Assembly (NCBI RefSeq): GCF_007750855.1
Contig: NZ_CP036291.1
Coordinates: 5,492,905-5,556,904 of the forward strand
Source: Pirellulimonas nuda
GTDB lineage: Bacteria; Planctomycetota; Planctomycetia; Pirellulales; Lacipirellulaceae
Length of the DNA: 64,000 bases
Direction: 5' to 3'
Below the pieces are notes generated by a model. The model saw only the letters and a list, made by a program, of their open reading frames with translations. It was not told the origin of the DNA and did not search any database. This document shows, one piece after another, positions 21,822 to 44,483 of this stretch. The stretch's first letter is position 1. The number at the start of each line of letters is the position of its first letter. Both the position numbers and the translations under genes were made by a program.

Positions 21822-22655
21822 ATGCGATTCGACCTGTCTTCGTGTGCGCGACTGGGGAGGGGAGTCCTCGTGGCGTCTTCCCTAATCTGCGTTGCGACTG
21901 CTGGCGCCGAGGCGGCCCTGATCCGGCACTGGGCTCTGGACGAGGCGAACCTCACCGACCCAGGAAACAACACGTACGCCGGGATCATCGATTCCACCGG
22001 AAACAGCACCGGCGCTACATTGTTCGGCTACAACGCCGGCAAGGATATGGCCGCGCTCGGGGTGGTTAATGTCCCTGGTCCGACGGGCTTTGGAACGGCT
22101 TACAACTTTACCGAAGTGCCTGGCGAGAACGCCGGGATCTCCGGCGTGTTCACGAACAGCCTCGACGCGATCCCGGCGACGGGCGACTTCTCGCTGCAGG
22201 TCGTGATGAACTCTACGAACGTTGCGGGCAACTCGAACCTTTTCTCCAACAATAATGGCCAAGGGGGTCGCGCAGGGCTGCAGACCGATGCGAGTGGGAA
22301 TCTATTCTGGTTCCACAACGGCGGCGTCAATATCACTACTACCGCGAACGTAACCGACGGCGCCTGGCACATGGTAGGGATCGCCAGGGAGGGGACTCGG
22401 TTCGACCTTTTCGTCGACGGCGTGATTGTCGGCACCGGCGATTCGGCCGGGGCGATCTCCACGGCTCAATCGTGGATGATCGGTCGTCAACGCAGCTCCG
22501 GCGGCGGATACAACGGCCTGGTCGCCGACGTGAAGATTTATGACAGCTACCAACTCCCCGGGGCGCTGGTGCCCGAGCCCGCAGGAATCGCGCTGCTCGG
22601 CTTGGCGGCAGCCGCGATGGCGGCTGGCTCCAGGCGGGGCCGCATGGTGAGCTAG
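21822..22655 (+). CDS. PEP-CTERM LamG-domain protein
   Basis: A 277-residue exported protein. A signal peptide (GVLVASSLICVATAGAEA) is followed by a single LamG/concanavalin-like jellyroll covering almost the whole chain: IRHWALDEANLTDP at the start, WHMVGIAREGTRFDLFVDGV in the middle and YNGLVADVKIYDS at the end. It closes with a short PEP-CTERM anchor (LVPEPAGIALLGLAAAAMAA). Its FWFHNGG stretch and overall order match the LamG half of the protein at 24701. The start is ATG at 21822, with GGAGGG upstream. A carbohydrate-binding role is likely but inferred. Confidence 0.85.
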   Translation: MRFDLSSCARLGRGVLVASSLICVATAGAEAALIRHWALDEANLTDPGNNTYAGIIDSTGNSTGATLFGYNAGKDMAALGVVNVPGPTGFGTAYNFTEVPGENAGISGVFTNSLDAIPATGDFSLQVVMNSTNVAGNSNLFSNNNGQGGRAGLQTDASGNLFWFHNGGVNITTTANVTDGAWHMVGIAREGTRFDLFVDGVIVGTGDSAGAISTAQSWMIGRQRSSGGGYNGLVADVKIYDSYQLPGALVPEPAGIALLGLAAAAMAAGSRRGRMVS

Positions 22656-22950
22656 AGCGACAGTTTGCATCGTGCGGGGCGTCCGGCAGCGGGCGTCGGC
22701 GGGCGTCTCCGCCGGTGCGAAGCGTTGGATATCGCGTCTGACTTCTAGTGTAGTGCGTCACTTTTACCCGATCATATCGATCGCCTTTTTTGGCACTCAG
22801 TTTCAGCCGCAGTCGCAAAGCTGTCCCGAAGAGACCTCCGCGGAAAAGGTCACGTCTGATTGATGCAGTACACTAGTTCGTTTCTTTTCAACACTCGGTT
22901 TCACAAGTTCATGTCAGCGTCGGCCCAAAAGCGGCTGAGGGAGAATTTCC

Positions 22951-24615
22951 ATGTCGAGTAATCCATGCGCCGTATTGCGTATGCTGCATCGGGCGGTAGG
23001 GACAAGTTATTGGGACCAACTACGCTCGGCCGCGTTGGCGGCGGCGGTCGTGACGTACTGCGTCCCCTTCACCCACGCGCAGACGACCGTCCTCGTGGCG
23101 GATTCGCTCAACAGCCGGGTCGTAAGCTACAACGTCAACGCCAGCAACAACTGGTCCGTCAACGGCATCTTCGCCCAGGCAAGCGACGGATCGGGTCTGA
23201 ACTCGCCGGGGCCGATCGTTTACGACAGCGCCACCAGCACGGTCTACATCGGCGAGGTCAACCAGGGTGGCGCCGCCCGAATTTTGAAGTATAGCGCGGC
23301 GGGCGTGTTTCAGGGGGTGCTTACCACCTTTGGCGGGGAGATCCCCGACAGCCTAGCGATCGCGCCGGACGGCAATTTGTTCGCCTCGAACCCGTTCGGC
23401 ACCAACGGCTTCGAGAAGGACAACATCTACAAGGTGAACATCTCCACCGGCGGTTTCAGCGAGTTCATCGCCGAGCCTGACCCGCTCTTCTTCCCGAACC
23501 CGACGTACCGGCTGATCAACCCGCGCGGACTTGCTGTAGCGGGTAACACGCTTTACGTGGCCAACCGCGACAGCATGGGCACCAGCACCGGCTCGATCCT
23601 GCGGTTCGACGCCACGACCGGCGCCTACCTCGACGCTGGGATCGGCGCCGACCCGCTGACAATCAACGACGACGTGTTTGGCAATTTCGACAACCCCATG
23701 GCGCTGCACTTCAACGCGTCGACCAACACGCTCACGGCCGGTGTATTCGGAGGTGGGCAGGACCTTTTCGAGATCGATCTAGCGGGCTCTGCGGCGTTTG
23801 CGCCCCCGGTATCCCCGACGAATACACCCGCCGAGGGAGTGACGAAGATCTACAATCCCAGCGACACCGGTTCGATCCTCAGCATCGACGTGATCGGCGG
23901 CCAGACCTATTGGAGCAGTTTCAACACGGGCTCGGTCTACCGCCTCGACGCGGTAGACACGAAAACGACAGTAGCCTCGGGGCTCGGCAACGCGCAAGGG
24001 ATCGAAGCGATCCCCTTCCAGGGCATCGGCTCTGCGGAGCAGGAGTGGCAAGTCGATGACTTCGGGAACTGGGACGTCGGCGCCAACTGGCTGTTTGGCT
24101 CGCCTGACAGCGATGTCGCCCGGGCTCTGCTGGGGGGCGTGATTCAGGCGCCCGCCACGGTTTACATGGATGCCGCCAACACCGTGAAGTCACTGCGGTT
24201 CGACAACGCCAACAAGTACGCGGTCGCTGGCGCAGGGTCGTTGACGCTAGAGGCTGACACCGGAAGCGCCTTGATCACGGTCACCAGCGGGTCGCACGAA
24301 TTGCAGTTGCCCGTGGAGCTCGGCAGCAACACCACTGTCAACGTTGCCGCCGGAACGACGCTCGCGTTCAACAACCTGCTGGTCCAAAACGGTTTCACGC
24401 TCACGATCCTCGGCTCCGGCACGGTCAACTTTAACAACGCCAGGGTCCTAGGCGGGAACCCCGGCAGCATCATCGCCGCACCGGGCGTGACGCTGTTGGG
24501 GGCCGCGGGGCTGGGCGCGCTCGTGGGGACCGCGGTCCCCGAGCCGGGCGCCGCGGCGTTGCTGCTGGCTGGCTGCCTGGCGGGGATTATCGCGCGGCGG
24601 CGGCGGGTCTGGTAG
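22951..24615 (+). CDS. PEP-CTERM protein with NHL-type propeller
   Basis: A 554-residue exported protein. After the signal region (AALAAAVVTYCVPFTHAQ) come about 330 residues of NHL/SMP-30-like propeller repeats: VLVADSLNSRVVSYN, DSLAIAPDGNLFASNP, PRGLAVAGNTLYVANRD, LRFDATTGAYL. A shorter beta-strand module follows (EWQVDDFGNWDVGANWLFG onward), ending in SGTVNFNNARVLGG. The chain ends with TAVPEPGAAALLLAGC, a PEP-CTERM anchor with tail ARRRRVW. The propeller is closely related to residues 410-680 of the protein at 26578. GGGAG precedes the ATG. No enzymatic residues are recognised. Confidence 0.85.
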   Translation: MSSNPCAVLRMLHRAVGTSYWDQLRSAALAAAVVTYCVPFTHAQTTVLVADSLNSRVVSYNVNASNNWSVNGIFAQASDGSGLNSPGPIVYDSATSTVYIGEVNQGGAARILKYSAAGVFQGVLTTFGGEIPDSLAIAPDGNLFASNPFGTNGFEKDNIYKVNISTGGFSEFIAEPDPLFFPNPTYRLINPRGLAVAGNTLYVANRDSMGTSTGSILRFDATTGAYLDAGIGADPLTINDDVFGNFDNPMALHFNASTNTLTAGVFGGGQDLFEIDLAGSAAFAPPVSPTNTPAEGVTKIYNPSDTGSILSIDVIGGQTYWSSFNTGSVYRLDAVDTKTTVASGLGNAQGIEAIPFQGIGSAEQEWQVDDFGNWDVGANWLFGSPDSDVARALLGGVIQAPATVYMDAANTVKSLRFDNANKYAVAGAGSLTLEADTGSALITVTSGSHELQLPVELGSNTTVNVAAGTTLAFNNLLVQNGFTLTILGSGTVNFNNARVLGGNPGSIIAAPGVTLLGAAGLGALVGTAVPEPGAAALLLAGCLAGIIARRRRVW

Positions 24616-24700: not shown

Positions 24701-26581
24701 ATGTTTCGCAACACCTTGATTTGGACGGCAGCGACCGCGCTGGCGGCCACGCTGGGGAGTGAGGCGCTCGCCCAGGACATCACCACGGGCCTGTTGGGCC
24801 ACTGGAAACTCGACGAGGGGGGGGGCGCCACTGTGGCTGCCGACTCCGTGGGCGCCAACCCCGGCGCCGTGCAGGGCGCCGTGACCACCGGGCTCTCGGG
24901 CCGCGTTGACAACGGCTACGTCTTCGCCGGCACGAACGCCAACCGCGTGCTGACCACCGCCACCGCGCCGCTGCTCGGGATCGACACCGGCCCGATGAGC
25001 ATGTTCGGGTTCGTCAAGACGGCCGACATCGGGACGATTCAGCAGCACATCTTCTCTGGGAACAACGGCGCCGCGGGGCGCTGGAACCTGGGCATTATCG
25101 ACAACAGCATGGGATCCACCATCCCGGGCGAGCCGCCGGGTGGGGACGGTGTGGGCGAACTGTTTTGGTTCCACAACGGCGGGCTGGGGTTTGTGCACAC
25201 CGACCTCGTCCTGTCCGACAACACCTTCCACTTGGTCGGCATCTCGCGTAGTGCGACCAACGACTGGACCGCTTACGTCGACAACACCACGTTCGCGCTG
25301 GGGAATAGCGCCGGGGCGCTGGGCGGTTCGGCGATCTCGTTCGGCGAACGCCCCAACGCGGGGCAGTTCCCCCTGGAAGGGACCCTCGACGACATGCGGA
25401 TCTACAACCGGGTGCTGTCTGCTGCGGACATCGCCGCGTTGCTCGCCCAGCCGTCGCCGCCGCCGACCCCCAACCAGTGGACGGCCAACGCCTCGGGGAG
25501 CTGGCTGGGCGCGGGCAACTGGCTCAACGCAGTGCCCAATGGCACGGCGGATATTGCACGGTTCGGCGCCATCCCCAGCGCCGCGAACATCACCGTGGTG
25601 GTCGACTCGGCCGTCACCGCGAAGGGGGTCGCCTTCAATAGCGCCACGACAAGCTACATCGTCGCCGGCACGCAGACGTTGACGCTCGATTCCGACACCG
25701 GGTCGATCAGCCTCGGTGTGGAGCAGGCCGGTTCCCACGAGTTCCAAGCGGCAGTGAGCGTCAACGACGGCGTGACCGCGAACATCGCGGCCGGCGGCCG
25801 GCTCGATTTCAACAACGCGCTCCGCCTCAACGGTCAGACGCTCACCAAGAGCGGGGACGGCACGCTGAACATCAACAACCAGCTCGGCAGCCTCACCGGC
25901 ACGGTGAACGTAACCGCTGGTGCCTTGGGGGGGACCGGCAAACTAGGGGGCGCCCTCAACAATCAAGCGGGGGGCACGGTCGCCCCGGGCGCCAGCGCCG
26001 GCAAGCTCAGCGTCAGCGGCGCCTACACCCAGGCTGCTGGGGCGACGCTCGCGATCGAGCTGGGGGGCACGGCGGCCGGCCTGTTCGATCAATTGGCGGT
26101 TGCGGGAACGGCCGGACTGTCCGGCGTCGTCGACATCTCGCTGATCAACGGCTTCACCCCCGCCAACGGGGACAGCTTCGAGATTGTCTCCGCGGCATCC
26201 ACGCTGACCATGACCGGCCTGACGCTCGCGGGTGACTCCAGCGGCTTCAGCCTGGTGAAGACTGGCAACAGCCTGTTCTTGAACTTCGCCGGCGGCGGCG
26301 GGGTCGCGGGCGACTTTAACGCGGACGGGTTCGTCGACGCGGCGGACTACACGGCATGGCGCGACCGCCTTGGCTCGAACACTCCCCTGCCGAACGACAA
26401 CGGCCTCGGCGTGCCGATCGGCGCTCAGCACTACACGCTCTGGAAAGGCAGCTTCGGCAACCCGGGCGTCGGCGCCTTGGCCGCCGGGTCCAGCCCGGTG
26501 CCAGAGCCCTCCGCGGCGTTGCTGTTGGCGGCGGTCGCGGGAGTGTCAATCCTGGTGACCCGTCGGGGAGGCGTCCGTTGA
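24701..26581 (+). CDS. PEP-CTERM LamG protein with beta-strand module and dockerin
   Basis: A 626-residue exported protein built from four parts: a signal peptide (TALAATLGSEALAQ); an N-terminal LamG domain (LLGHWKLDEGGGATV to LDDMRIYNRVLSAADIAAL); a beta-strand module of about 280 residues (NQWTANASGSWLGAGNW through GGTVAPGASAGKLSVSGAY); and two dockerin-like EF-hands (DGFVDAADYTAWRD, HYTLWKGSFGN) before the PEP-CTERM anchor (SPVPEPSAALLLAAVAG). The beta-strand module is shared with 22951, 26578 and 35533. The last codons overlap the TTG start of the next gene (TTGA), so translation is probably coupled. Confidence 0.88.
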   Translation: MFRNTLIWTAATALAATLGSEALAQDITTGLLGHWKLDEGGGATVAADSVGANPGAVQGAVTTGLSGRVDNGYVFAGTNANRVLTTATAPLLGIDTGPMSMFGFVKTADIGTIQQHIFSGNNGAAGRWNLGIIDNSMGSTIPGEPPGGDGVGELFWFHNGGLGFVHTDLVLSDNTFHLVGISRSATNDWTAYVDNTTFALGNSAGALGGSAISFGERPNAGQFPLEGTLDDMRIYNRVLSAADIAALLAQPSPPPTPNQWTANASGSWLGAGNWLNAVPNGTADIARFGAIPSAANITVVVDSAVTAKGVAFNSATTSYIVAGTQTLTLDSDTGSISLGVEQAGSHEFQAAVSVNDGVTANIAAGGRLDFNNALRLNGQTLTKSGDGTLNINNQLGSLTGTVNVTAGALGGTGKLGGALNNQAGGTVAPGASAGKLSVSGAYTQAAGATLAIELGGTAAGLFDQLAVAGTAGLSGVVDISLINGFTPANGDSFEIVSAASTLTMTGLTLAGDSSGFSLVKTGNSLFLNFAGGGGVAGDFNADGFVDAADYTAWRDRLGSNTPLPNDNGLGVPIGAQHYTLWKGSFGNPGVGALAAGSSPVPEPSAALLLAAVAGVSILVTRRGGVR

Positions 26582-29500
26582 TTAGCTTCTGCTTTCGCCC
26601 GATACGCGCCGCGCGAGCGGCGGCATGCGCGGTGAACCCGCGCCTCGCAACGGTGCTCTGCGTCTGCGCCCTGGCCGTACTCACGCCCGCGGCCCAGGGC
26701 GTGGCGCAGGACTTCTCGCAGGTGCCGGGCACGGTGGTCAACCACTTTCCAAGGTCCTCGGGAGAATACGTCGGTTCGCCGTCGATTGTGATTCTCCCGA
26801 ACGGGGACTACGTGGCGTCGCACGACCGGTTCGGTCCGAGCTCGTCGTTCAACACGTCGTCCAAAACCGAGGTGTTCCGGTCGACCGACCAGGGGCTCAC
26901 CTGGTCTCCGTCGGCAACGCTGCAGGGCCAGGCCTGGTCGAACTTGTTCACCCAAGGGAACGACCTCTACATCATGGGGGTCGACAAGCTGTACGGCAGG
27001 ATCGTCGTGCGGAAATCAATCGACGGCGGATCGAGCTGGACCAACCCCACCAACGCCGCGAACGGCTTTCTGACGTCCGCCAACGGCTACCACACCGCGC
27101 CGATGCCGATGGTAGAGCACAACGGACGGATCTGGCGGGGCTTTGAAGACACGTCCAACGGCGGGGGCTGGCCGCGGCACTTCCGCTCGCTGGTGATGTC
27201 CGCCCCGATCGGCTCCGACCTGCTGGTTGCGTCCAATTGGACCCTCAGCAACGCGCTTGCCAGCAACACCTCGTGGATCAACGGCGAGGTGAACGGCTGG
27301 CTGGAAGGGGGCGTCGTGGTCGACCGCGACGACAACCTCGTCAATCTCCTGCGGGTCGACAACCTGTCGGTTGCCGCTGTGGTGCGGGTCGACGAGCAGA
27401 ACCATTCCGTATCGTTCAACCCCGATCAGGATTTTGTCGACTTCCCCGGCGGGGCCACCAAGTTCGCGGTCCGCTACGACGCCGCGTCGGACCGCTACTG
27501 GACACTCTCCAACCCAGTGCTGCCGCAGTTCCAGGGGAGTTCTCCAGGGAGCACACGCAACGCGCTTGCGCTTATGTCCTCCAGCGACTTGAGCGATTGG
27601 GAGGTCGAGTCGGTCCTGCTCTACCACCCCGACCGATCGAAGCACGGTTTCCAGTACGTCGATTGGCAGTTCGATGGGCAGGACCTCATCGCCGCGTCGC
27701 GGACCGCGTACGACGACGGGCTGGGGGGCGCCGCAAACTACCACGACGCCAACTTCCTCACCTTCCACCGGGCCGACGACTTCCGCACGCTCTCCCCGTC
27801 GCACGCGCTGGTGGCCGACACGGGCGCGGATCGCATCTTGCGGTACCAAGCCAATGCCGCAGGGGAGTGGGTCCCGCTGGGTAACTTCATCAACAGCAAC
27901 GCCCCCGGCGCGGCGCTCGACGCCCCCATAGGCCTGCTGCAAGACTCGCAAGGGTTTGTCTACGTCGGCGAGCAAAAAGACGGCGGACGCATCATCAGGT
28001 TCGACGCCGGCGGCAATTTTATCGATGTCGTGGCGACCGAAGGGGTAGATTTCAGCGGACGCCCGGAGGCCCTAGCGCTCGGCCCCGACGGCAACCTAAT
28101 CCTTTCGACCGCTTTCGGAGCCGATTCGGACCGGATCTTCTCGATCGACACGGCGAGCCGTGCGGTCGCAACGCTGGTGGATACTGCCTTCGCGGGGGGG
28201 AGCCTCGACAACCCCCGAGGGATCGCCGTGGACGACGCAGGAACGCTGTACGTGGCCAACCGCGAAGGGGACAAAGTGCAGAAGTTCAACGCCACGACCG
28301 GCGCCTTTCTCGGCGATTTGTGGAGCATCGACAGCCCGCAAGGCTTGGCCTGGGACACCAGCGGCCAACGGCTGATCGCCTCGGCGTTGTCGAGCACCGA
28401 CCTGTATGAGGTGAGCCCAGACGGCGTTGCGAACAAGCTGTACGACCCCAGCGACATCGGCTCGGCGTTGGGGATTCAGGTGATCGATGGCGAGGCGTTC
28501 TGGACGGACTTCCAGAACGGCCGAGTCTACAGACTCACTGCCCAGGACCAGAAAGAAACCGTCGTCAGCGGGCTCAGCGGCCCGGGGCACGTGCTCGGCG
28601 TTGCGGCCCCGCAAGAACGGACCTGGCTAAGCGATGGCATCGGCGTGTGGCGCGACCCGACGAACTGGTCGAGCTACTGGGGGGTCGCCAACACCGCGGA
28701 AGAGATCGCGGTGTTCGGGCCGGGGATGACCGCGGATCGCACCGTGGTGCTCGACCAAGACGTCAGCGTGGGGGGGGTGCGACTAATCGGCGAGAATTCG
28801 GTCGCCATCGCCGGGCCCGGCGTGCTGCGGCTGGCCGGAGTGCCGGTGCAGGTGTTTGGCGGCGACCATCAGTTGCAGGTCGCGGTGAGCCTGCTTAACG
28901 AAGTTCGGGCGGATATCTCGGCCGGCGCCAGCCTCGCGGTCAACAACCAACTGAGGTTGGGGGGCCACGACCTGCGCAAGACGGGCGAGGGAGAACTGAC
29001 GCTCAATGGCGAGGTAGTCGCAGACGGGGGCGAGGTTCTCCTTGAACAGGGAACCCTCAACGGCAGCGGCGCGGTCCTGGGAGGGCTCTCCAACACCGGC
29101 GGCACGCTCTCGCCCGGCAACAGCCCGGGGCGGCTCTCCATTAGCGGCGACTACACCCAGGGCCAGCGAGGCGCCTTGGTGATGGAGCTCGGGGGAACCG
29201 ACGCCAACCGCTACGACCAGCTTTTGGTTCAAGGCTTATTCACCGCGGGAGGGCTGCTGTCGGTCGAGCTGATCGACGGCTACACCCCCGCCCTGGGAGA
29301 CTTTTTCGAACTAGTGTCCTTCCGCGAGAGCCGATCGAACTTCTCTTCCATCGACCTGCCGCGGCTCGACAACGGGCTCGCGTGGCGGCTTTCGCTCCAT
29401 AGTCAGCCCGGCGTGCTTCAGCTTTCCGTGGTCGCCGTACCCGAGCCCTCCGCCTACGCCCTCAGCGCGGCGTTGCTGGGCGCCCTGTTCTATCCCACGC

Positions 29501-29583
29501 AGCACATTCCGACGCTGCGGCGACTTACTTTCCCCCGTGGCAAGATCCCGGGGCGCACCATCTTCTCAGGAGGCCGACGATGA
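26578..29583 (+). CDS. Sialidase-like / NHL propeller / PEP-CTERM multidomain protein
   Basis: A 1001-residue exported protein. Residues 45-405 are a BNR/sialidase-like six-bladed propeller with Asp-box-like repeats (VFRSTDQGLTWSP, RKSIDGGSSWTNP). Residues 410-680 are an NHL propeller (LALGPDGNLILSTAFG, PRGIAVDDAGTLYVANRE). Residues 682-950 are the beta-strand module (GGTLSPGNSPGRLSISGDY). VAVPEPSAYALSAALLGA near 954 is the PEP-CTERM segment, followed by an unusually long basic tail of about 30 residues. TTG at 26578 is taken as start because it overlaps the previous stop (TTGA) and has GGGGAGG about 10 bases upstream. Its sialidase-like part is paralogous to that of 40535. The gene ends in ATGA with the DUF1559 gene. 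Confidence 0.82.
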   Translation: MISFCFRPIRAARAAACAVNPRLATVLCVCALAVLTPAAQGVAQDFSQVPGTVVNHFPRSSGEYVGSPSIVILPNGDYVASHDRFGPSSSFNTSSKTEVFRSTDQGLTWSPSATLQGQAWSNLFTQGNDLYIMGVDKLYGRIVVRKSIDGGSSWTNPTNAANGFLTSANGYHTAPMPMVEHNGRIWRGFEDTSNGGGWPRHFRSLVMSAPIGSDLLVASNWTLSNALASNTSWINGEVNGWLEGGVVVDRDDNLVNLLRVDNLSVAAVVRVDEQNHSVSFNPDQDFVDFPGGATKFAVRYDAASDRYWTLSNPVLPQFQGSSPGSTRNALALMSSSDLSDWEVESVLLYHPDRSKHGFQYVDWQFDGQDLIAASRTAYDDGLGGAANYHDANFLTFHRADDFRTLSPSHALVADTGADRILRYQANAAGEWVPLGNFINSNAPGAALDAPIGLLQDSQGFVYVGEQKDGGRIIRFDAGGNFIDVVATEGVDFSGRPEALALGPDGNLILSTAFGADSDRIFSIDTASRAVATLVDTAFAGGSLDNPRGIAVDDAGTLYVANREGDKVQKFNATTGAFLGDLWSIDSPQGLAWDTSGQRLIASALSSTDLYEVSPDGVANKLYDPSDIGSALGIQVIDGEAFWTDFQNGRVYRLTAQDQKETVVSGLSGPGHVLGVAAPQERTWLSDGIGVWRDPTNWSSYWGVANTAEEIAVFGPGMTADRTVVLDQDVSVGGVRLIGENSVAIAGPGVLRLAGVPVQVFGGDHQLQVAVSLLNEVRADISAGASLAVNNQLRLGGHDLRKTGEGELTLNGEVVADGGEVLLEQGTLNGSGAVLGGLSNTGGTLSPGNSPGRLSISGDYTQGQRGALVMELGGTDANRYDQLLVQGLFTAGGLLSVELIDGYTPALGDFFELVSFRESRSNFSSIDLPRLDNGLAWRLSLHSQPGVLQLSVVAVPEPSAYALSAALLGALFYPTQHIPTLRRLTFPRGKIPGRTIFSGGRR

Positions 29584-30569: not shown

Positions 30570-30573
30570 GTGC

Positions 30574-31017
30574 ATGGACAGCAATCGGCGTTATCATCCA
30601 ACCGGAGCCTTGCTCGCGCTTTCCATGGCGGCGGCGATTGCCGGCTGCGACTCGGGGCCGCCGCGCTACTCCGTCACCGGACGCGTGCTGTGCAACGGCG
30701 AGCCCGTGCCGCAAGGAAAGCTGATCTTCACCCCGGACAGGACCGCCAACAACTCCGGCGGGCAGGGGGTCGCGATCATCGAGAACGGCAGGATTCGCAC
30801 GCAGAGCGATCGCCGGCTGGTCGGGGGACCCCACTGGGTGCAGATCATCGCCACCGACGGTAAGGCGTACGACGGCCCCGAGGGCCCCGTTTCGGCCGGC
30901 AAGGCGCTCTTTCCGATCGTCGACGCCCAGGCGCCGCTGCCTCAGGCCGACGCCGAGATCGAGATCAATGTCACCACCGGTCGGGGCGATCCGAAGGCCG
31001 AAGTCACCGTGAAGTAA
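30574..31017 (+). CDS. Small lipoprotein, DUF1559 partner
   Basis: A 147-residue protein with a lipoprotein signal (ALLALSMAAAIAGC, lipobox IAGC). The body begins YSVTGRVLCNGEPVPQGKL, followed by GGPHWVQIIATDGKAYDGP and a C-terminal strand, EIEINVTTGRGDPKAEVTV. Strand order and the TGRV..NGEPVP.G pattern match the lipoprotein at 10465. ATG at 30574 is chosen because it starts the lipoprotein signal; an ATG at 30547 would overlap the pseudopilin gene. Expected to sit at the inner or outer membrane facing the periplasm. Function unknown. Confidence 0.82.
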   Translation: MDSNRRYHPTGALLALSMAAAIAGCDSGPPRYSVTGRVLCNGEPVPQGKLIFTPDRTANNSGGQGVAIIENGRIRTQSDRRLVGGPHWVQIIATDGKAYDGPEGPVSAGKALFPIVDAQAPLPQADAEIEINVTTGRGDPKAEVTVK

Positions 31018-34076: not shown

Positions 34077-34081
34077 CCCCG

Positions 34082-35524: not shown

Positions 35525-35532
35525 TCTTCCGC

Positions 35533-37980
35533 ATGCACAGCCGCAACGCCGCAACCCTTCTGATCCTGCTTGGCGGGCTTTCCGCTACGTCCGGCCACGC
35601 GTTGGCCGCGCCGCCGGCCGGCTACCAGTTGTTGTTCGCGGACGAGTTCAACGCAACGACCACGCTCGACTCGATGAAGTGGCTCGACAGGTACCCGTGG
35701 GGACGCACCCACAACCACGACGCGTACGCCGCCCCCGAGAACGTCGTGCTCGGCGACGGCACATTGACGCTGCTGGCGGAGCGCCTGGCCCAGGGAGGAG
35801 AACCGTTCACTTCGGGGACGATCTCAACCGGCTACTCCAAATTCACGTTCACTGAGGGGTACGCGGAAGCGCGGATCCTGCTGCCGAGCACCCCCGGTTC
35901 GTGGCCCGCGTTCTGGGGGCTGTACACCGGCTGGCCACCCGAGTCGGACATCATGGAGTTCCCGATCTTCACCAGCGGCGACACCAAGACCGACTACCAC
36001 GTCTCCTGGCACTACAAGGCCCCCAACGGCAGCAACGCCTCTTCCGGAGGCTTTAAGGACCCCTCAGGCGTGGGCGACCTCACCACCGCCTACCACACTT
36101 TCGGCATGGAGTGGAAGAAGAACGACTTTGTGAAGTACTTCTTCGACGGCCAGTTGGTGCACACCTTCGACAACGACGCGGAGATCGCCGAGATGCAGCA
36201 CATGTATCTCATCCTCAACTACGCGGTAGGCGGCTGGCCCGGCACGCCCTCCACCAGCCAGTGGCCCGTTGGCCACACGGACGAAACCAAGATCGACTGG
36301 GTCCGCGTCTGGCAGAAAACCGACCCCAACACGCTGCACGAATGGACCCGCGCGTCCAACGGAAACTGGGGCGACAACGGCAACTGGAGCGGCGCCGCCC
36401 CGTCATTAGGAACGCAGATCGCCAGATTCGGCCAGGTCAATGCGGCGACCGTCAGGGTCGATTGGGCCAACCTACGCACCGTGGGCTCCCTGCTGCTGGA
36501 GGGCTCAACCCGCTACACCATCGGCACGGGCGACGAATCGCTGAAGTTCGCCGGGGCGGACCAGAACGCGTTGTCGCAGATCTTTCTCACAAACGGCCCG
36601 GGGGCGACCGATCACGTCATCAATTCTCGAATCGACCTCTGGAGCCAGCTTGCCATCCGCAACAGCGCGCCGGCGGCTACGCTGACCATCAATGGCGACG
36701 TGGTGGGCTACGGCGCCATGAGCCTCAACGGCCCGGGCCTGATCCGCATGAACGGCCGGGTCTACAACAACGCGTCGATCACCCTGAACAGCGGCGCCAA
36801 CGCCGAAGTGAACGGGGGGCTCTACCGCGACAGCCCCCCACCCGCTGACACCCGGCTCGCGGTGGGCGGCGGCGGAACCGTCGCCACGCTCACCATCGCC
36901 AACCTGAACTACGCCAGCGCGCTGGGGTTCCTGCCAAACGACCCGGCCCGCTTCGTTCTCAACGCCGGCCGCGTCAGGCTGACCGGCTCGTCGACGATGA
37001 CGCGGGGGTTCACCATCGACGCGGGCGGCGCCACCTTTGAGACAGCCGCCAACGCGGTCGTCAACATCGCCGACGACCCGCAGAACGCCGGCATGGAAGT
37101 GGTCACCAACGCAGCCGGCACGCTCACACTCGACGGGGCCGGGATCGGCGTGTGGGGGAAGGAGCTCCACGGGCAGGGCGCCCTGACCAAGGCGGGCGCC
37201 GGCTCGTGGAACATCACGTCCGCCAACTACTACGCCGGCACCACCGCGGTTGCGCAGGGCGAGCTGGTGGTCAGCGGCAGCACCGGGTTCGGCGCCGCGA
37301 CGGTTGCGGCCGGCAGTCGGTTGTCGGGTGCCGGGCTGGTGCGGGGCGACCTGGCCTCGGCCGGCGTCGTCGCCCCGGGGGCGCCGAGCGGGCAACTCAC
37401 CGTGGGGGGCGCCTACCAACAGCACGCGACCGGTGAACTGGAGATCGTCTTGAGCCCTGCCTCGGTCGACTCCCTCAAGGTGCTGGGCGAGGCCAACCTC
37501 GCGGGCGCCCTCAAGGTAGTCACCAGCGGTGGGTACCTACCGCAACAAGGCGCCTCGTTCGAACTGATTTCCGCCGCGGGCGTGACCGGCGAGTTCCAGT
37601 CGGTGCTGTTGCCGGCGCTTGAGGGCGGGTTTTCTTGGTCGCTGCAATACTCGACGGACTCCGTTGTGCTGCGGGTCCTATCGGCCTTGCCGGGAGACTA
37701 CAACCAGGACGGCCTGGTGGACGCCGCCGATTACACCGTGTGGCGCGATCAGCTCGAGAGCGTCGGGGCGTCGCTGACGGCCGACGGCGATGGCGACGGC
37801 AGCGTCGGCACCTCCGACTACCACCTCTGGAAAGAACACTTCGGCCAGTCGCTGGCTTCGGGATCGCCCGCTGAGGCCGCCGCGGTTCCCGAGCCTACCG
37901 GCCTGTGCCTGATCGTGGCGGCGGGGGTGGGCCTGGGCCTGCGCCGCCGATGGAGCCTCCGGACGGGTCGCCATGCCTGA
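35533..37980 (+). CDS. GH16-family glycoside hydrolase with PEP-CTERM anchor
   Basis: An 815-residue exported enzyme. A signal peptide (LLILLGGLSATSGHALA) precedes a GH16 catalytic domain (about 28-270) with the active-site motif E137-S-D139-I-M-E142 in PPESDIMEFPIF; the two glutamates are nucleophile and acid/base in this family. Flanking strands include AFWGLYTGWPP and FGMEWKKNDFVKYFFDG. A long beta-strand module follows (EWTRASNGNWGDNGNW onward). Two dockerin-like repeats come next (DGLVDAADYTVWRD, DGSVGTSDYHLWKEHFGQ). The chain ends in AVPEPTGLCLIVAAGVGLGL, a PEP-CTERM anchor. GH16 enzymes cut laminarin, agar, carrageenan or similar beta-glycans; which one applies here is not clear. It overlaps the symporter start by 8 bases. 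Confidence 0.9.
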   Translation: MHSRNAATLLILLGGLSATSGHALAAPPAGYQLLFADEFNATTTLDSMKWLDRYPWGRTHNHDAYAAPENVVLGDGTLTLLAERLAQGGEPFTSGTISTGYSKFTFTEGYAEARILLPSTPGSWPAFWGLYTGWPPESDIMEFPIFTSGDTKTDYHVSWHYKAPNGSNASSGGFKDPSGVGDLTTAYHTFGMEWKKNDFVKYFFDGQLVHTFDNDAEIAEMQHMYLILNYAVGGWPGTPSTSQWPVGHTDETKIDWVRVWQKTDPNTLHEWTRASNGNWGDNGNWSGAAPSLGTQIARFGQVNAATVRVDWANLRTVGSLLLEGSTRYTIGTGDESLKFAGADQNALSQIFLTNGPGATDHVINSRIDLWSQLAIRNSAPAATLTINGDVVGYGAMSLNGPGLIRMNGRVYNNASITLNSGANAEVNGGLYRDSPPPADTRLAVGGGGTVATLTIANLNYASALGFLPNDPARFVLNAGRVRLTGSSTMTRGFTIDAGGATFETAANAVVNIADDPQNAGMEVVTNAAGTLTLDGAGIGVWGKELHGQGALTKAGAGSWNITSANYYAGTTAVAQGELVVSGSTGFGAATVAAGSRLSGAGLVRGDLASAGVVAPGAPSGQLTVGGAYQQHATGELEIVLSPASVDSLKVLGEANLAGALKVVTSGGYLPQQGASFELISAAGVTGEFQSVLLPALEGGFSWSLQYSTDSVVLRVLSALPGDYNQDGLVDAADYTVWRDQLESVGASLTADGDGDGSVGTSDYHLWKEHFGQSLASGSPAEAAAVPEPTGLCLIVAAGVGLGLRRRWSLRTGRHA

Positions 37981-39499
37981 AGGCCTACCGGTCCTCGACC
38001 TGTGCGTGCTCGTCGCCTACGTGGCCGGCGTGGTGGGGTTGGGCTGCGCCATGATGCGCAAGAGCGGCAGCACTGACGAGTTCATGGCGGCGGGCAGGTC
38101 GCTCCCCGGTTGGGCGGTCGGGCTGTCGATCTTCGGCACCTACGTCAGCAGCATCAGCTTCCTTGCCAACCCCGGCAAGAGCTACGCCAGCAACTGGAAC
38201 CCCTTCGTGTTCAGCCTGTCGTTGCCGCTGGCGGCGTGGATCGCGACCCGGTACTTCGTGCCGTTCTTCCGCAGCAGCGGCGAGGTCTCGGCGTATACCC
38301 ACCTGGAGCATCGCTTCGGGGCCTGGGCGCGGACCTACGCGGTGATCTGCTTCTTGCTGATGCAGCTTGCTCGCGTGGCCACCATCCTCTACCTGGTCGC
38401 GCTGGCGCTCGCACCCATGTTGGGGTGGAGCATCCCGATGATCATCGTGGTGACGGGCGTGCTTGTGACCCTCTATACGCTGATGGGGGGCATCGAGGCA
38501 GTGATCTGGACCGACGCCCTACAGAGCGTGGTGCTGACGCTCGGCATGGGGGCGGCCGTGGGGGTAGTCATGTGGCAGATGCCCGGAGGGCCGACCCAAG
38601 TGTTCGAGATTGCCGTGCGGGACCACAAGTTCAGCCTGGGGAGTTTTGGCGCGTCGCTGACCGAGTCGACCTTCTGGGTCGTGCTGCTGTATGGCTTGTT
38701 CATCAACCTCCAGAACTTCGCCGTCGATCAGACCTACGTTCAGCGCTACGTCACCGCCAAGAGCGACGCCGCGGCAAACCAGAGCGTGTGGATGGGCGCG
38801 CTGCTCTACCTGGTGGTCTCAGCGCTGCTGTTCTTGGTCGGCACGTCGCTGTACGCGTTCTACCAAGTGCAGCCGGGGCTGCTGACGGACGCCTCGGGCG
38901 GCACGATCGCCGCGGACGCCGTGTTCCCCCACTTCATCGCGTCGGGCCTCCCCGCCGGGCTTTCTGGGCTGCTGATCGCCGCGGTGCTGGCCGCCGCGAT
39001 GAGCAGCGTCGACTCTAGCTTGAACAGCGCCGCCACGCTGTTCCTGTGCGACATCTACAAGCGTTACCTCCGCCCAGACGCCGGCGAACGCGAGTCGATG
39101 CGTGTGCTGTACGCCACCACGCTGGTATGCGGCGTCGGCGGCACGGGGGCGGGGCTGTGGATGATGAACGCAGAGCAGGTGCTCGACGTCTGGTGGCAAC
39201 TGGCCGGCGTCGCCGGCGGGGGTCTGTTGGGGCTGTTCCTGCTGGGGCGGATGTCCCCCAGGGTCCGCGGTCCGCACGCCGCCGCCGCCGTGGTGGTTGG
39301 GGTGTTGGTCATCCTGTGGATGACGTTCTCGCCGATGAAGCTATGGCCTGCCGAACTCGCGGACATAAAGTCGCCGCTCCACGGTTTCTTGACCATTGTC
39401 TTCGGAACGACTTCGATACTGATCGTGGGCGCTGTGTCCGCCCTGATCTGGCCCGGCACGCCGGGCCCCCTCCACCAACCCGAGCCATCGCCGCGATGA
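37973..39499 (+). CDS. Sodium:solute symporter (SSS family)
   Basis: A 508-residue inner-membrane transporter with about 13 membrane segments. Typical SSS features are the N-terminal segment followed by GSTDEFMAAGRSLPGW, the SSISFLANPGKSYASNW region of the sodium-binding helix, LYTLMGGIEAVIWTDALQ and NFAVDQTYVQRYVTAKSDA. AAAMSSVDSSLNSAATL forms part of the second half of the sodium site. Many sugar and sialic-acid transporters belong to this family. The start overlaps the GH16 gene by 8 bases, and the end overlaps the aldolase start by ATGA, so it is tightly coupled to glycan breakdown. Confidence 0.92.
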   Translation: MPEGLPVLDLCVLVAYVAGVVGLGCAMMRKSGSTDEFMAAGRSLPGWAVGLSIFGTYVSSISFLANPGKSYASNWNPFVFSLSLPLAAWIATRYFVPFFRSSGEVSAYTHLEHRFGAWARTYAVICFLLMQLARVATILYLVALALAPMLGWSIPMIIVVTGVLVTLYTLMGGIEAVIWTDALQSVVLTLGMGAAVGVVMWQMPGGPTQVFEIAVRDHKFSLGSFGASLTESTFWVVLLYGLFINLQNFAVDQTYVQRYVTAKSDAAANQSVWMGALLYLVVSALLFLVGTSLYAFYQVQPGLLTDASGGTIAADAVFPHFIASGLPAGLSGLLIAAVLAAAMSSVDSSLNSAATLFLCDIYKRYLRPDAGERESMRVLYATTLVCGVGGTGAGLWMMNAEQVLDVWWQLAGVAGGGLLGLFLLGRMSPRVRGPHAAAAVVVGVLVILWMTFSPMKLWPAELADIKSPLHGFLTIVFGTTSILIVGAVSALIWPGTPGPLHQPEPSPR

Positions 39500-40467
39500 A
39501 GCCCCTCTGCCCCACGCTCCCCGCGCCCCTCTGCGGGATCGTCCCGCCGCTGCTGACTCCGCTGGCCGGTCGTGACACGATCGACGTCGCCGGCCTCGAG
39601 CGGCTCATCGAACACACGCTTGCCGGCGGCGTGGACGGGCTGTTCCTGCTCGGCACGACCGGCGAGGCCGTGTCGCTTACCCCCGACTCGCGGCGGGAGC
39701 TGGTCCGGCTGGCGGCCGGCTTTGTCGCGGGAAGGGCGCCGGTGCTCGTAGGAGTGACCGATAACTCGGTCGCGGAGACGCTCGCGATGGCCGACTACGC
39801 GGCAGACGCCGGCGCCAACGCGGTCGTGGCCACCTCGCCGTTCTACGTCCCGCTGGAGCAGCACGAGCTGGTGTCGTACATCCGCACACTCGCCGATGCA
39901 AGCACGCTGCCGGTCTTCCTCTACAACATGCCGCGCCTGACGAAGACCTGGTTCGACGTCGCCACGGTCGAGCGGCTGATGGAGATCGACTCGGTCGTGG
40001 GGCTCAAGGACAGCTCGGGCGACCTGGAGTACCTGGCCGCCGTGTGCGCGCTCGCCCGCAAGCGTGCGGGGTGGTCGGTGCTGGTGGGGCCCGAGGACCT
40101 GCTGGTCCAAGCGGTCGGTCTGGGCGCCGACGGCTGCGTCGGCGGGGGGGGCAACGTCTGGCCACGGCTGCTGGTCGATCTCTACCAGGCCGCCGTCGCG
40201 GGCGATGGGCCAACGGTCGATAAGCTGCAAAGTCGCCACGCAGAGCTGAGCCGAGTCTTCGCCTACGGCGGCTACGCGGCCAGCGCCATCCGCGGCTTGA
40301 AGTGCTCCGCCGAGCTGATGGGGCTTTGTTCCGGCTTGATGGCCGAGCCGTTCGAACCCTGCACTGCGCCCCAGCGGGAGGCGATCGAGCGGGTGCTGCG
40401 CGGCTCGGGGCTGTTGGCCGCGGGCGACAGGCGTCCGCACGCGATGTCGCAGGACGCCGCCAAGTAA
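39496..40467 (+). CDS. DHDPS / N-acetylneuraminate lyase-family aldolase
   Basis: A 323-residue class I aldolase of the DapA/NanA superfamily. It has the opening GIVPPLLTPL, GGVDGLFLLGTTGE as the phosphate/carboxylate-binding loop, FLYNMPRLTK with the catalytic tyrosine (Tyr143) and GLKDSSGD with the Schiff-base lysine (Lys171). YNMPRLT is closer to the lyase (YNIPALT) than to the DHDPS (YNVPGRT) version, so a 2-keto-sugar-acid lyase is more likely than lysine biosynthesis. It starts within the stop of the symporter gene (ATGA). In this locus it may cleave an imported sialic acid or similar keto-acid. Confidence 0.87.
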   Translation: MKPLCPTLPAPLCGIVPPLLTPLAGRDTIDVAGLERLIEHTLAGGVDGLFLLGTTGEAVSLTPDSRRELVRLAAGFVAGRAPVLVGVTDNSVAETLAMADYAADAGANAVVATSPFYVPLEQHELVSYIRTLADASTLPVFLYNMPRLTKTWFDVATVERLMEIDSVVGLKDSSGDLEYLAAVCALARKRAGWSVLVGPEDLLVQAVGLGADGCVGGGGNVWPRLLVDLYQAAVAGDGPTVDKLQSRHAELSRVFAYGGYAASAIRGLKCSAELMGLCSGLMAEPFEPCTAPQREAIERVLRGSGLLAAGDRRPHAMSQDAAK

Positions 40468-40534: not shown

Positions 40535-43264
40535 TTGATCGAGACACGCTACACCAGCCTACTGAGCCCCCATCGCCCGACCGCACGTTGCTTGGGCGTC
40601 GTGCTCTTGCTTTCTGCCTGCGCATCGGCGAACGCCAAGGAGCCCGCGCGAGCCGACTTCTCCAAGGCGCCCGGGGTGGTGATCGACCACGTCCCGGCCA
40701 GCGCAGGGGTCTACATCGGCTCGCCCAGCCTCGTGGTGCTCCCCAGCGGCGAGTACATCGCCTCGCACGATGAATTCGGTCCGAAGTCGTCCGAGCACAG
40801 CCGGGCGGTCACGCGTATATTCCGCTCGACCGATCGCGGCGAAACCTGGGCGCCCATCGGCAAGGTGGACGGCCAGTTCTGGTCGACGCTGTTCTACAAC
40901 CAAAAGGCGCTCTACCTGGGAGGGGCGTGGAAGCACCACGGCAACCTCATCATCCGCCGCTCCGACGACGGCGGCGTCACCTGGACCGAGCCGACCGACG
41001 CCGCCACCGGCCTGCTGGCCGAGGGGCAGTACCACTGCGCGCCTCAACCGGTGGTGGTGCACGAGGGGCGCATCTGGCGCGGGATGGAAGACGCCGGCGG
41101 CAGCAACACCTGGGGCGAGCGGTACCGACCCTTCATGATGTCGGCCCCGATCGACGCCGATCTGCTCAGCCGCCAGAGCTGGACCTTCTCCAACTACTTG
41201 CCGATCGACAAGGGCTGGATCGACGGCAAGATGCGGGGCTGGCTAGAAGGGAACGCGGTGGTGGCCCCCAACGGTCAGATCGTCAACATCCTCCGCGTGG
41301 CCGCGACAGGGGTCGGAGGAGTCGGGGCGCTCATGCGTGTATCCGACGACGGCAAGACGATCTCGTTCGACCCCCAGGAGGGGTTCATCGAGTTCCCCGG
41401 CGGCGCCAAGAAGTTCACCATCCGCCACGACCCCGTTTCGGGCCGCTACTGGTCTCTAGTGAATTGGGTGGCGCCGGAGGACGAAGGCAAACGCGAGCCG
41501 GGCGGCATCCGCAACACACTGGCGCTCACCAGTTCGGTCGACCTGCTGGACTGGAAGATCGAGCGCGTGGTCGTGCGCGACCCCGACCTCGAGCACGGCT
41601 ACCAGTATCCGGACTGGCAGTTCGACGGCGACGACCTGATCGCGGTGGTGCGGACCGCCACCGACGACGGGCTGGGGGGCGCGCACAACTACCACGACGC
41701 CAACTTCCTGACGTTCCACCGCTTGGAAGGATTTCGAGACCCGCCGGTCGACAACCGCCCGCAGGGGCAGCCACCGCAAGAACAGGGGGCTGACGCACGC
41801 CTCCGACCGCGGACGGGGGGCGCGACGCCCCGCAATGTGCTGTTTATCATTGCGGACGACCTCTCGTGCGAGCTGGGGTGCTACGGCGCCGCCGGTGTAT
41901 TAACGCCCAATCTCGACCGCCTCGCAGCACGCGGACGCACGTTCTTGAACGCCTATTGCCAATCGGCCCTTTGCAACCCGTCGCGCGCTTCGCTGATGAC
42001 CGGACTACGTCCCCACGAGCTGGGGGTCTGGACCAACTCCCCCCACTTCCGCGAAACCTCGCCCGGAGTCGTCACGCTTCCGCAGTGCTTTCAATCGCAT
42101 GGGCGGCACGCGGTGGGCATCGGCAAGGTGTACCACAACTACGGCCAACGCCTCCACGGCGACGCCGCTTCGTGGTCGGAGCCTCAGGTGAACCATTGGG
42201 GCGCCCACTTCCACGACTGGTTTGTCCCCGGGCGCGGCTCCGTGCTGCACGGCGATTGGGCCAAGGCCGAAGCTGTGCAGCGCGCCGACGTTCCGGACGA
42301 CGCCTACATCGACGGCCGCAGCGCCTCCCTGGCGACGCAGAAACTCCGGGAGCTCAAGCAGGTCGGCCAGCCGTTCTTCATGGCCGTGGGCTTCTGGAAG
42401 CCGCATCTGCCTTTCAATGCCCCCAAGAAGTACTGGGATTTGTACGACCAAAACAACCTGCCCCCGCCTCCTTCCGACGGCCCGCCGTCCGCGGCGCCCG
42501 CCATCGCGTTGCACAATTCTCAGGAAGCCCGCAGCTACACCGATGTCCCCGATCGGGGGCCGATCCCCGCGGGCAAGCAACGCGAGCTGCGGCACGCCTA
42601 CCTGGCCGCCATAAGCTACGTCGACGCCCAGGTGGGGCGGGTGCTGGATGAGCTGGACCGCCTCGGGATAGCGGAGGATACGGTTGTCGCGTTTTGCTCC
42701 GACCACGGCTATCACGCTGGAGACATGGGGCTCTACGGGAAACTTACCAACTTCGAATCGGGGACGCGCACGCCCCTGATTATCGCGGCGCCCGGCATGG
42801 CGGCGCCGGCGTCTAAGACTTCGGCAATCTGCGAACTGCTCGACCTCTACCCGACGCTCGTGGAAGTCTGTGGGCTCCCCGTTCCTGCTGGGCTCTCGGG
42901 GCGGTCGTTGTGCCCGGTGCTCGACGACCCCGAGGCGACGGTGAAGCCGTACGCGTTGAGCCAGATCACGCGGCCCGTTTACGTTGAGAAGGCAGTCGAC
43001 GCCATTGGGTCGTCGCTGCGAACGACGCGGTACCGCTACACCCGCTGGAGCCAGGGCGCCGATGGGTCGGCCCGAGTCCCAGGGCCGGTGATCGACGAGG
43101 AACTGTACGACGTTCGGCGAGACCCCGGCTTCGCCCAGAACGTCGCCGGGCAAGCGGCCTACGCCGAAATGCTTGGCGAGGCCCGATCGCGGCTTGCGGG
43201 GTGCTTCGCCGGGGGGGCGGCTCCCCGGGCGCCGGCGGTCAACGGGGCTGGCGTCTCAAACTAG
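40535..43264 (+). CDS. Sialidase-like domain fused to iduronate-2-sulfatase-like sulfatase
   Basis: A 909-residue exported protein. A signal peptide with LGVVLLLSACASANA precedes a BNR/sialidase-like propeller (about 40-405) with IFRSTDRGETWAP and RRSDDGGVTWTEP Asp-box-like repeats; it is the closest paralogue of the N-terminal part of 26578. A short proline-rich linker joins a complete type I sulfatase from about residue 432: NVLFIIADDLSCELGCYGA, the formylglycine motif ALCNPSRASLMTG with Cys480, FMAVGFWKPHLPFNAPKKY and VVAFCSDHGYHAGDMG. The HLPFNAPKKY block is of the iduronate-2-sulfatase type. The start is TTG at 40535 with AGGAG upstream. One chain would carry two activities against a sulfated glycan (inference). 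Confidence 0.85.
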   Translation: MIETRYTSLLSPHRPTARCLGVVLLLSACASANAKEPARADFSKAPGVVIDHVPASAGVYIGSPSLVVLPSGEYIASHDEFGPKSSEHSRAVTRIFRSTDRGETWAPIGKVDGQFWSTLFYNQKALYLGGAWKHHGNLIIRRSDDGGVTWTEPTDAATGLLAEGQYHCAPQPVVVHEGRIWRGMEDAGGSNTWGERYRPFMMSAPIDADLLSRQSWTFSNYLPIDKGWIDGKMRGWLEGNAVVAPNGQIVNILRVAATGVGGVGALMRVSDDGKTISFDPQEGFIEFPGGAKKFTIRHDPVSGRYWSLVNWVAPEDEGKREPGGIRNTLALTSSVDLLDWKIERVVVRDPDLEHGYQYPDWQFDGDDLIAVVRTATDDGLGGAHNYHDANFLTFHRLEGFRDPPVDNRPQGQPPQEQGADARLRPRTGGATPRNVLFIIADDLSCELGCYGAAGVLTPNLDRLAARGRTFLNAYCQSALCNPSRASLMTGLRPHELGVWTNSPHFRETSPGVVTLPQCFQSHGRHAVGIGKVYHNYGQRLHGDAASWSEPQVNHWGAHFHDWFVPGRGSVLHGDWAKAEAVQRADVPDDAYIDGRSASLATQKLRELKQVGQPFFMAVGFWKPHLPFNAPKKYWDLYDQNNLPPPPSDGPPSAAPAIALHNSQEARSYTDVPDRGPIPAGKQRELRHAYLAAISYVDAQVGRVLDELDRLGIAEDTVVAFCSDHGYHAGDMGLYGKLTNFESGTRTPLIIAAPGMAAPASKTSAICELLDLYPTLVEVCGLPVPAGLSGRSLCPVLDDPEATVKPYALSQITRPVYVEKAVDAIGSSLRTTRYRYTRWSQGADGSARVPGPVIDEELYDVRRDPGFAQNVAGQAAYAEMLGEARSRLAGCFAGGAAPRAPAVNGAGVSN

Positions 43265-43397
43265 CGGGGGCTCGGGCTTGCCGCTGCATCGCGGCCCGCT
43301 CCGCGTGCGGCCAGACCCGCACGGCATGGCTCTCCGGAAGCGATGAGCCAACCACCAACGGGCAAGACCCTGAGTCGCCCTCCGAGCCACCATCAGA

Positions 43398-44483
43398 ATG
43401 ATCAACAGCATGCGCATGATTCTCCCACGAATGCTAGTCGGGCATCTAACGGCCGTCGTTTGCCTGTCGGGCATCGCGACCATCGAGTCGAGGGCCGAAG
43501 CCCCCCCCTCGATGGGCTTCGCCACGGCGCCGGCCGGGGCGTTCGATATCGAGCACGCCCCGGCGCCGCTGTTCCGCGACCCCATGTTCGACGGCGCTGC
43601 CGACCCGTCGATCGTGTTCAACCCGGAGGACGGCAGCTGGCTCATCTACTACACCCAGCGCCGCGCGGGGTTGATCTGCCCGGGGGTGGCGTGGTGCTAC
43701 GGCACCAAGATCGGCATCGCGAAGTCGACCGATCAAGGCCGGAACTGGAAGTACGTCGGCGCAGCGCGGGGCCTCGACAGGGGGACGGACATCGACACCT
43801 TCTGGGCGCCGCATGTGTTTCTCCACGAAGGGGTCTATCACATGTTCGTGACCTACATCGCGAATGTCAGCGAGGACTGGAGCGGCCGGCCCTACTTGTT
43901 GCACTACACCAGCCCGGACGGGTTGTCGTGGACGTTGGCCGACGACGTCGACACCGGCTCCGACAACATGATCGACGCCGCGGTGGTTCGCCTCCCCGAC
44001 AAGCGATGGCTGCTCGTCTTCCGCGACGACACGGTGGGCGTGAAAACCGCGAAGTGCGTTAGCGAAGACCTGCGGACCTGGCGGCGGCTCGACGACGTCA
44101 CCGGCGACAAGCCGCACGAGGGGCCCGTAATGCTGGTCTGGAAAGACAAGTACTGGCTGCTGACCGACGACTGGCAGGGGTTGGGCGTTTACGTGTCGGA
44201 CGACGGCATCCACTACCAGCGAAACACCACCATCCTCAGCGGCACGGGGGTGCGTCGCGACGACTTCGGAGACGGCAAGCACCCCGGCGTAATGACCGTC
44301 GGCGACCGGGCCTTCGTCGTCTACTTCACCCACCCGGGCCGCAAGCCGGGCGTGGCCGAGTGGGAGGCAGACAATGTCGCCTCCTTCGACTTCAAACGCT
44401 CGAGCCTGCAAGTCGCGGAGCTGGGCGTCGACGACCAAGGGCGGCTGACTTGCGACCGCGACAAATTCGCGCAGCGGCCGTAG
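43398..44483 (+). CDS. GH43/GH117-like glycosidase
   Basis: A 361-residue exported protein, probably a five-bladed propeller enzyme. A signal peptide (LVGHLTAVVCLSGIATIES) precedes RDPMFDGAADPSIVFNPEDG, which has the aspartate of the catalytic base region, then FWAPHVFLHEGVYHMFVTY, NMIDAAVVRLPDKRWLLVF, and HEGPVMLVWKDKYWLLTDD, whose glutamate would be the general acid. These blocks fit glycoside hydrolase family 43 and its GH117-like relatives; the exact family cannot be told. It is the last gene of the plus-strand train, 133 bases after the fusion gene. Confidence 0.8.
   Translation: MINSMRMILPRMLVGHLTAVVCLSGIATIESRAEAPPSMGFATAPAGAFDIEHAPAPLFRDPMFDGAADPSIVFNPEDGSWLIYYTQRRAGLICPGVAWCYGTKIGIAKSTDQGRNWKYVGAARGLDRGTDIDTFWAPHVFLHEGVYHMFVTYIANVSEDWSGRPYLLHYTSPDGLSWTLADDVDTGSDNMIDAAVVRLPDKRWLLVFRDDTVGVKTAKCVSEDLRTWRRLDDVTGDKPHEGPVMLVWKDKYWLLTDDWQGLGVYVSDDGIHYQRNTTILSGTGVRRDDFGDGKHPGVMTVGDRAFVVYFTHPGRKPGVAEWEADNVASFDFKRSSLQVAELGVDDQGRLTCDRDKFAQRP

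Follow-up and report, generated by a model that had tools for sequence, protein, structure and literature searches.

The stretch analysed here, called the window, comprises 64,000 nucleotides of the complete 6.6-Mb genome of Pirellulimonas nuda (contig NZ_CP036291.1). It holds a run of 15 plus-strand genes, in which a GntR/FCD regulator gene (20930-21706) heads 14 genes ending at 44483. Here, I argue that this run is a GntR-controlled glycan-use locus arranged around a recurring sugar-acid module, namely the regulator, a sodium:solute symporter (SSS) and an aldolase, and that the substrate of the module is most likely a 3-deoxy-2-ulosonic acid other than N-acetylneuraminic acid (Neu5Ac), with an acid resembling 3-deoxy-D-manno-octulosonic acid (Kdo) as leading candidate; the probability of this reading is put at roughly 0.55. 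The features concerned, with the matches or motifs on which they were assigned, are the following.

19192-20718, minus: divergent S1-type sulfatase with a CSASR motif (Pfam Sulfatase 2.7e-54)
20846-20874, plus: promoter-like TTGACA-17-TAGATT upstream of the GntR gene (10/12 in a consensus scan; alone no evidence of function)
20883-20894, plus: predicted GntR operator CTGGAATTCCAG, 35 bases before the GntR gene and just downstream of the promoter-like site
20930-21706, plus: GntR-family regulator with FCD ligand domain (Pfam FCD 7.9e-24, GntR 4.8e-17)
21822-22655, plus: LamG-like (ConA-like) exported PEP-CTERM protein (Pfam Laminin_G_3 3.8e-15; C-terminus)
22951-24615, plus: NHL-propeller-like PEP-CTERM protein (TIGR02595), resembling the NHL part of 26578-29583
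24701-26581, plus: LamG-like PEP-CTERM protein with dockerin-like repeat (Pfam Laminin_G_3 2.9e-08)
26578-29583, plus: sialidase-superfamily propeller (26707-27789) with NHL/SGL propeller and PEP-CTERM (SGL/NHL Pfam matches; 53% identity to 40640-41788)
29580-30569, plus: DUF1559 pseudopilin-like protein (Pfam SBP_bac_10 6.4e-47, N_methyl)
30574-31017, plus: small lipoprotein-like protein, a recurrent DUF1559 partner (35-38% matches beside DUF1559 in loci L041 and L047)
31081-33171, plus: fusion of an FGE-like domain (catalytic Cys absent) and a BNR_2 propeller (Pfam 2.3e-41 and 1.2e-19)
33168-34076, plus: PhyH-like Fe(II)/2-oxoglutarate oxygenase, HCD motif at 149 (NCBIfam NF045813 4.5e-17, below its cut-off)
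34082-35524, plus: YidR-like DUF3748 propeller, probably exported (Pfam DUF3748 6.2e-54)
35533-37980, plus: laminarinase-like GH16 enzyme with dockerin-like repeat and PEP-CTERM (Pfam 5.6e-13, over cut-off; ESDIMEF, agreeing with the ExDxxE motif)
37973-39499, plus: SSS-family symporter (Pfam SSF 3.2e-45; 48-61% to aldolase-linked SSS proteins; tree)
39496-40467, plus: DHDPS-family class I aldolase of the 'GPE' clade (Pfam 2.8e-58; active-site residues; tree)
40535-43264, plus: sialidase-superfamily propeller (40640-41788) fused to an S1 sulfatase with CNPSR (Pfam Sulfatase 7.2e-45; BNR_2 below cut-off)
43398-44483, plus: GH159 exo-furanosidase, on beta-D-galactofuranosides or alpha-L-arabinofuranosides (PDB 7zei, Ch_Gaf159A, 5.3e-74)

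Organisation and transcription of the gene run

An earlier, sequence-only reading of this DNA had described fourteen plus-strand genes at 21822-44483 headed by a GntR gene, and intact reading frames in all 14 together with the family matches bear this out. It had also counted seven junctions that overlap or are spaced by less than 10 bases; the tight packing stands, the number does not, for with the most likely gene starts eight junctions fall within -8 to +8 bases (-4, -4, +4, -4, +5, +8, -8 and -4). Five of the eight lie in the unbroken stretch 31081-40467, which holds the BNR fusion, PhyH, YidR, GH16, SSS and aldolase genes. The GC content at third codon positions is high in all train genes (0.78-0.90), and three intergenic gaps exceed 100 bases.

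Two terminator-like hairpins were noted, one at 22769, which separates genes two and three of the 15, and one at 44727, 3' of the last gene; the number of hairpins in the scan is no higher than expected by chance. A single transcript from 22951 onward is plausible. One that reaches from the GntR gene to the end may exist, a possibility left unsupported because of the hairpin at 22769.

The aldolase

Judged by its sequence and tree position, the class I aldolase is neither DapA nor NanA and belongs to a clade set apart from both. The Schiff-base Lys165 and Tyr137 are kept, residues that are common to the whole superfamily. Leu takes the place of DapA's Arg138, and the score against TIGR00674 is 160.4 bits (cut-off 206), neither of which fits DapA. 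The signature of N-acetylneuraminate lyase (NAL) consists of a sugar-binding block, G[F/Y/P/V]DE, and a cleavage block, [I/V][G/S][S/G]T (PMC4016182); the window protein has GPED and VGGG in their places and departs from both.

The genome encodes five DHDPS-family genes. In a tree of 49 rows, in which long branches are flagged, the window aldolase and the 4070-kb paralogue are part of a clade of 41 rows (95/91) that also contains PDB 4xky, the copy at 4205 kb clusters with the DapA of E. coli (100/99), and the copy at 4953 kb, which carries NanA-like residues, groups with NanA (99/96). The phylogeny, a check that the sequence-only reading had itself named, gives no grouping with lysine-biosynthetic DapA, the 4205-kb gene being the DapA of this genome; the NanA- or NAL-like lyase proposed in the same reading is contradicted by the tree and by both signature blocks. 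A group of proteins is in this way split off from the common 'DapA/NanA' annotation into a separate clade. The structure 4xky, from Bacteroides thetaiotaomicron, shares with the window aldolase the GPE sugar block and the absence of the DapA Arg; it differs in coming from another phylum and was named dihydrodipicolinate synthase by its depositors, no functional test being found in the literature searched. A wider contig search with the aldolase returned one distant Opitutae locus only.

The 4070-kb paralogue (C1:4070530-4071447, L006), also of the GPE clade and 75% identical to the window copy, has no SSS or GntR gene nearby.

A recurring module and its predicted operator

Comparisons covered 118 genomes of the order, including 35 aldolase loci in relatives, with neighbours counted within about 10 kb. 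Near the aldolase, GntR genes occur at 18 loci, SSS genes at 16, BNR_2 propellers at 15, FG-GAP propellers at 12 and major facilitator superfamily (MFS) transporters at four; the BNR_2 count has a chance probability of about 1e-31, and aldolase and BNR_2 co-occur across genomes (p = 6e-6). GntR, SSS and the GPE-clade aldolase are a recurring module of Pirellulales.

The window GntR has no paralogue in the genome closer than 29%, and in the tree it joins aldolase-linked GntRs in a group of 17 members (100/100). The motif CTGGNATNCCAG was first suggested by palindromes lying upstream of GntR genes; a search that took no account of location met it in 15 of 128 loci, 14 of them aldolase loci. Beside the orthologous GntR gene the motif is exact in 14 of the relatives' 16 loci and present as a variant in the other two (L054 and L071). 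A matrix trained on 14 loci, with the window, L054 and L071 kept out of training, scores no lower than 15.4 bits at any of the 16 loci that have the orthologous GntR and no higher than 12.8 at the 17 aldolase loci that lack it; the window site, at 17.8 bits, is the best and the only exact copy in the 1.40 Mb (21%) of the genome scanned. On these sequence comparisons the window GntR is an orthologue that shares a predicted operator with the regulators of the module, and CTGGNATNCCAG offers a testable regulon marker for a glycan system of planctomycetes about which little is understood. Second operator sites lie beside FG-GAP and sulfatase genes in several relatives of family f15. The divergent sulfatase at 19192-20718, outside the stretch that the sequence-only reading covered, shares the operator-bearing intergenic region and possibly belongs to the same regulon.

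A weak operator-like site (11.3 bits) was also seen in L129, at about 12053, some 115 bases before an f1-type SSS paralogue.

In family f1 the usual order is fucosidase, DUF1559, AraC, GntR, BNR_2, (SSS), aldolase, DUF1559 and further genes. The window genome has an f1-conserved fucosidase/BNR_2 locus (L060, C1:4850001-4870000), from which exactly GntR, SSS and aldolase are missing. A simple move of the window module out of such an f1 locus was considered and rejected, for the trees of all three proteins place the window outside the supported f1 groups. Given these placements, and an f1-type SSS present at 4148 kb, the module seems to have been replaced from a different lineage. No operator was found in a search near the BNR_2 locus L060, so control of that locus in trans is not supported.

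A gene-order search, which the sequence-only reading had called for, met the combination of genes in no relative: at none of the 35 other aldolase loci do GH16, GH159, PhyH or sialidase-superfamily propeller genes lie near the aldolase. As a putative glycan-use locus, the run joins a core of regulator, transporter and aldolase, which is conserved, to a combination of hydrolases that none of those 35 loci shares. The same result bears on the alternative of a loose same-strand run, where the module would lie beside structural PEP-CTERM and DUF1559 genes and miscellaneous hydrolases with which it shares no function. This alternative draws on the lack of such neighbours elsewhere, on the hairpin at 22769 and on the three long gaps, but it sits poorly with eight near-zero junctions, five of which tie the hydrolase and oxygenase genes to SSS and aldolase, and with the fusion, in this run or in other loci, of propeller genes to domains of the BNR_2, NHL or sulfatase type; a run of that sort is improbable.

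The sugar acid probably handled by the module

In the favoured reading of a GntR-controlled glycan-use locus, exported or surface enzymes (GH16, two propeller proteins of which one is fused to a sulfatase, GH159 and the BNR_2 fusion) would cut a heterogeneous glycan of algal type into shorter pieces, strip its sulfate groups and trim it, and the SSS symporter would import the released sugar acid. The aldolase, through its Schiff-base Lys and Tyr, would cleave this 2-keto-3-deoxy acid to give pyruvate and an aldose. The GntR/FCD protein would bind the conserved CTGGNATNCCAG site by its own promoter and be released by the sugar acid or a product of it.

The nature of the acid is suggested by relatives. 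Eight of family f15 have an operon of SSS, aldolase, FucI-like isomerase and pentulose kinase; the kinase (TIGR01315) occurs in 8 of the 118 genomes, always directly after the aldolase-FucI pair (L040-L044, L047, L048 and L050), and in two f1 relatives a FucI-like gene and a ribulokinase-type kinase gene lie beside the aldolase. An aldolase that yields pyruvate plus a pentose, as the neighbouring isomerase and kinase suggest here, would act on a C8 ulosonic acid. Cleavage of Kdo yields D-arabinose, a known FucI substrate, and on the strength of this gene neighbourhood in relatives Kdo, or an acid resembling it, is the leading candidate. The route would lead from Kdo to pyruvate and D-arabinose (aldolase, as in EC 4.1.2.23), to D-ribulose (FucI-like isomerase) and to D-ribulose 5-phosphate (pentulose kinase).

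A more specific and tentative proposal is that the module might serve bacteria as a route for Kdo, or 5-O-methyl-Kdo, from algal scales and walls; in the window it would work together with genes of the laminarinase-like, sulfatase and furanosidase kinds, and its operator would define the regulon. Kdo and heptulosaric-type 2-keto sugar acids are prominent in prasinophyte scales and the Tetraselmis theca (PMC10762512). No bacterial gene cluster for the catabolism of Kdo-type acids was described in the literature searched; if true, the proposal would supply gene candidates for it, and if Kdo is wrong, operator and clade still make the substrate directly testable.

Several observations weigh against this interpretation. 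The run in the window contains no isomerase or kinase gene; the FucI-like gene of this genome is unlinked, at 2981 kb, and its family, a sub-threshold Pfam match only, is common without the aldolase (80 of 118 genomes), for which reason the isomerase was rejected as proof of Kdo. Neither GH16 nor GH159 is an indication of Kdo, and the degraded polymer is a putative one, assigned from gene families. As for regulation, the operator motif was discovered from some of the loci later used to train the matrix, no second operator lies inside the train, and the hairpin at 22769 falls within the run. Moreover, because L113 (16.3) and L116 (15.4), both FucI loci without aldolase, and a site at 5205 kb (C1:5205653, L143:2653; CACGCTGGGATTCGAGAAGG; 16.1 bits, second best in the scanned stretch) score in the operator range without the module, the matrix alone is not specific.

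A rival reading is a uronate-lyase route, whereby the propellers or YidR would act on uronate polymers and an aldolase of the 2-keto-3-deoxy-gluconate (KDG) type would release pyruvate and glyceraldehyde. FCD regulators often sense sugar acids; the second-best PDB relative of the window aldolase is YagE, a KDG aldolase; the MFS partner found in relatives is nearest to a D-galactonate transporter model; and gluconate and galacturonate support only poor growth of E. coli yidR mutants (PMC5293155). Yet neither a uronate lyase nor KduI/KduD nor a sugar-acid dehydratase was recognised in the train, the isomerase and pentulose kinase of eight relatives would be left unexplained, and the presence of YidR does not follow that of the aldolase (p = 0.28), on which ground YidR was also discarded as a marker of the module. 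Such a route is rather unlikely.

A keto-sugar acid, one of two options raised in the sequence-only reading, is the best reading of what the locus imports, and the idea of a regulated locus for glycan degradation and sugar-acid catabolism holds. The sulfation of the polymer fares less evenly, with sulfatases in its support, to which a laminarinase-like GH16 and a GH159 acting on furanosides add nothing.

Propellers and the case for sialic acid

The propellers at 26707-27789 and 40640-41788 form one family, an uncommon one that 9 of the 118 genomes contain. A Foldseek search with a two-sequence AlphaFold model of low confidence (predicted local distance difference test, pLDDT, 51; predicted template modelling score, pTM, 0.61) ranks GH33 sialidases first, so that, with low confidence, the two may have a sialidase-superfamily fold. 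In a sequence alignment judged by eye none of six homologues has the RIP arginine, five reading GSP and that of L100 SSP; since no homologue has Arg at the expected position, neither propeller appears to belong to GH33. The three sialidase-like propellers of the sequence-only reading reduce to two related ones without this arginine, the last gene encoding a GH159 furanosidase instead.

Outside the window, one homologous propeller shares its open reading frame with a BNR_2 propeller (L099:9138-11213) and another is attached to an NHL region (L100). L075 carries a fusion of BNR_2 with FG-GAP.

Use of sialic acid (Neu5Ac or 2-keto-3-deoxynononic acid, Kdn) through sialidase propellers, a SiaT-type SSS, a divergent NAL and a NanR-like GntR is nonetheless the comparison that the gene types invite. 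A GntR/FCD-type regulator, which here gives a weak NanR match, a transporter and a DHDPS-superfamily lyase are shared with the nanATEK/NanR system of E. coli, the propeller model points to the fold just described, and NanA homologues have been reported in Planctomycetes (PMC2693436). In contrast to nanATEK, the window run has no NanE or NanK, its transporter is not of the NanT family and its aldolase is without the NAL signatures and outside the NanA branch, the 4953-kb copy being the NanA-like one; NanE was above the cut-off in none of the 118 genomes (a search for NanE only, GlcNAc 2-epimerase/AGE-type and NagA/NagB not being searched), and the propellers lack the RIP Arg. Neu5Ac as substrate of the aldolase is disfavoured by these sequence features, and sialic acid use, which the sequence-only reading had put forward, is quite improbable. 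Taken together, the findings speak against ordinary sialic acid and, with less certainty, for acids of the Kdo type.

Other genes of the run

The GH16 protein has laminarinases and endo-1,3-beta-glucanases as its best PDB matches, and the sulfatase part of 40535-43264 combines a Pfam match with the CxPxR motif. The GH159 protein is similar to Ch_Gaf159A over its whole length and keeps the catalytic Asp19, Asp142 and Glu190 of that enzyme (alignment judged by eye); it differs in being seemingly exported. In the FGE-like domain the C-terminal catalytic Cys pair was not found and RGGSHSTPLAFLRSAAR holds no Cys; because of this, a role as sulfatase activator is unlikely. The YidR-like protein and the PhyH-like oxygenase are as the sequence-only reading had named them, the latter on a sub-cut-off match and its HCD motif.

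Co-location of hydrolases, sulfatases, a transporter and a regulator is a trait that the train shares with the polysaccharide utilization loci of Bacteroidetes; it differs from these in having PEP-CTERM proteins and SSS uptake in place of a SusC/SusD pair, for which no Pfam match was obtained among the train proteins scanned.

The DUF1559 gene followed by the small lipoprotein-like gene (29580-31017) recurs as the same pair in L041 and L047. A YidR structure model (AlphaFold, two sequences, pLDDT 51) was not used; its fold search returned propellers of no particular kind, and oligogalacturonate lyase came no higher than rank 47. YidR genes lie beside MFS-BNR_2 in L059, beside MFS/FucI in L123 and near the aldolase in L072, where YidR, UPF0261 and PEP-hydrolase-like genes stand in a row (L072:3539-10330).

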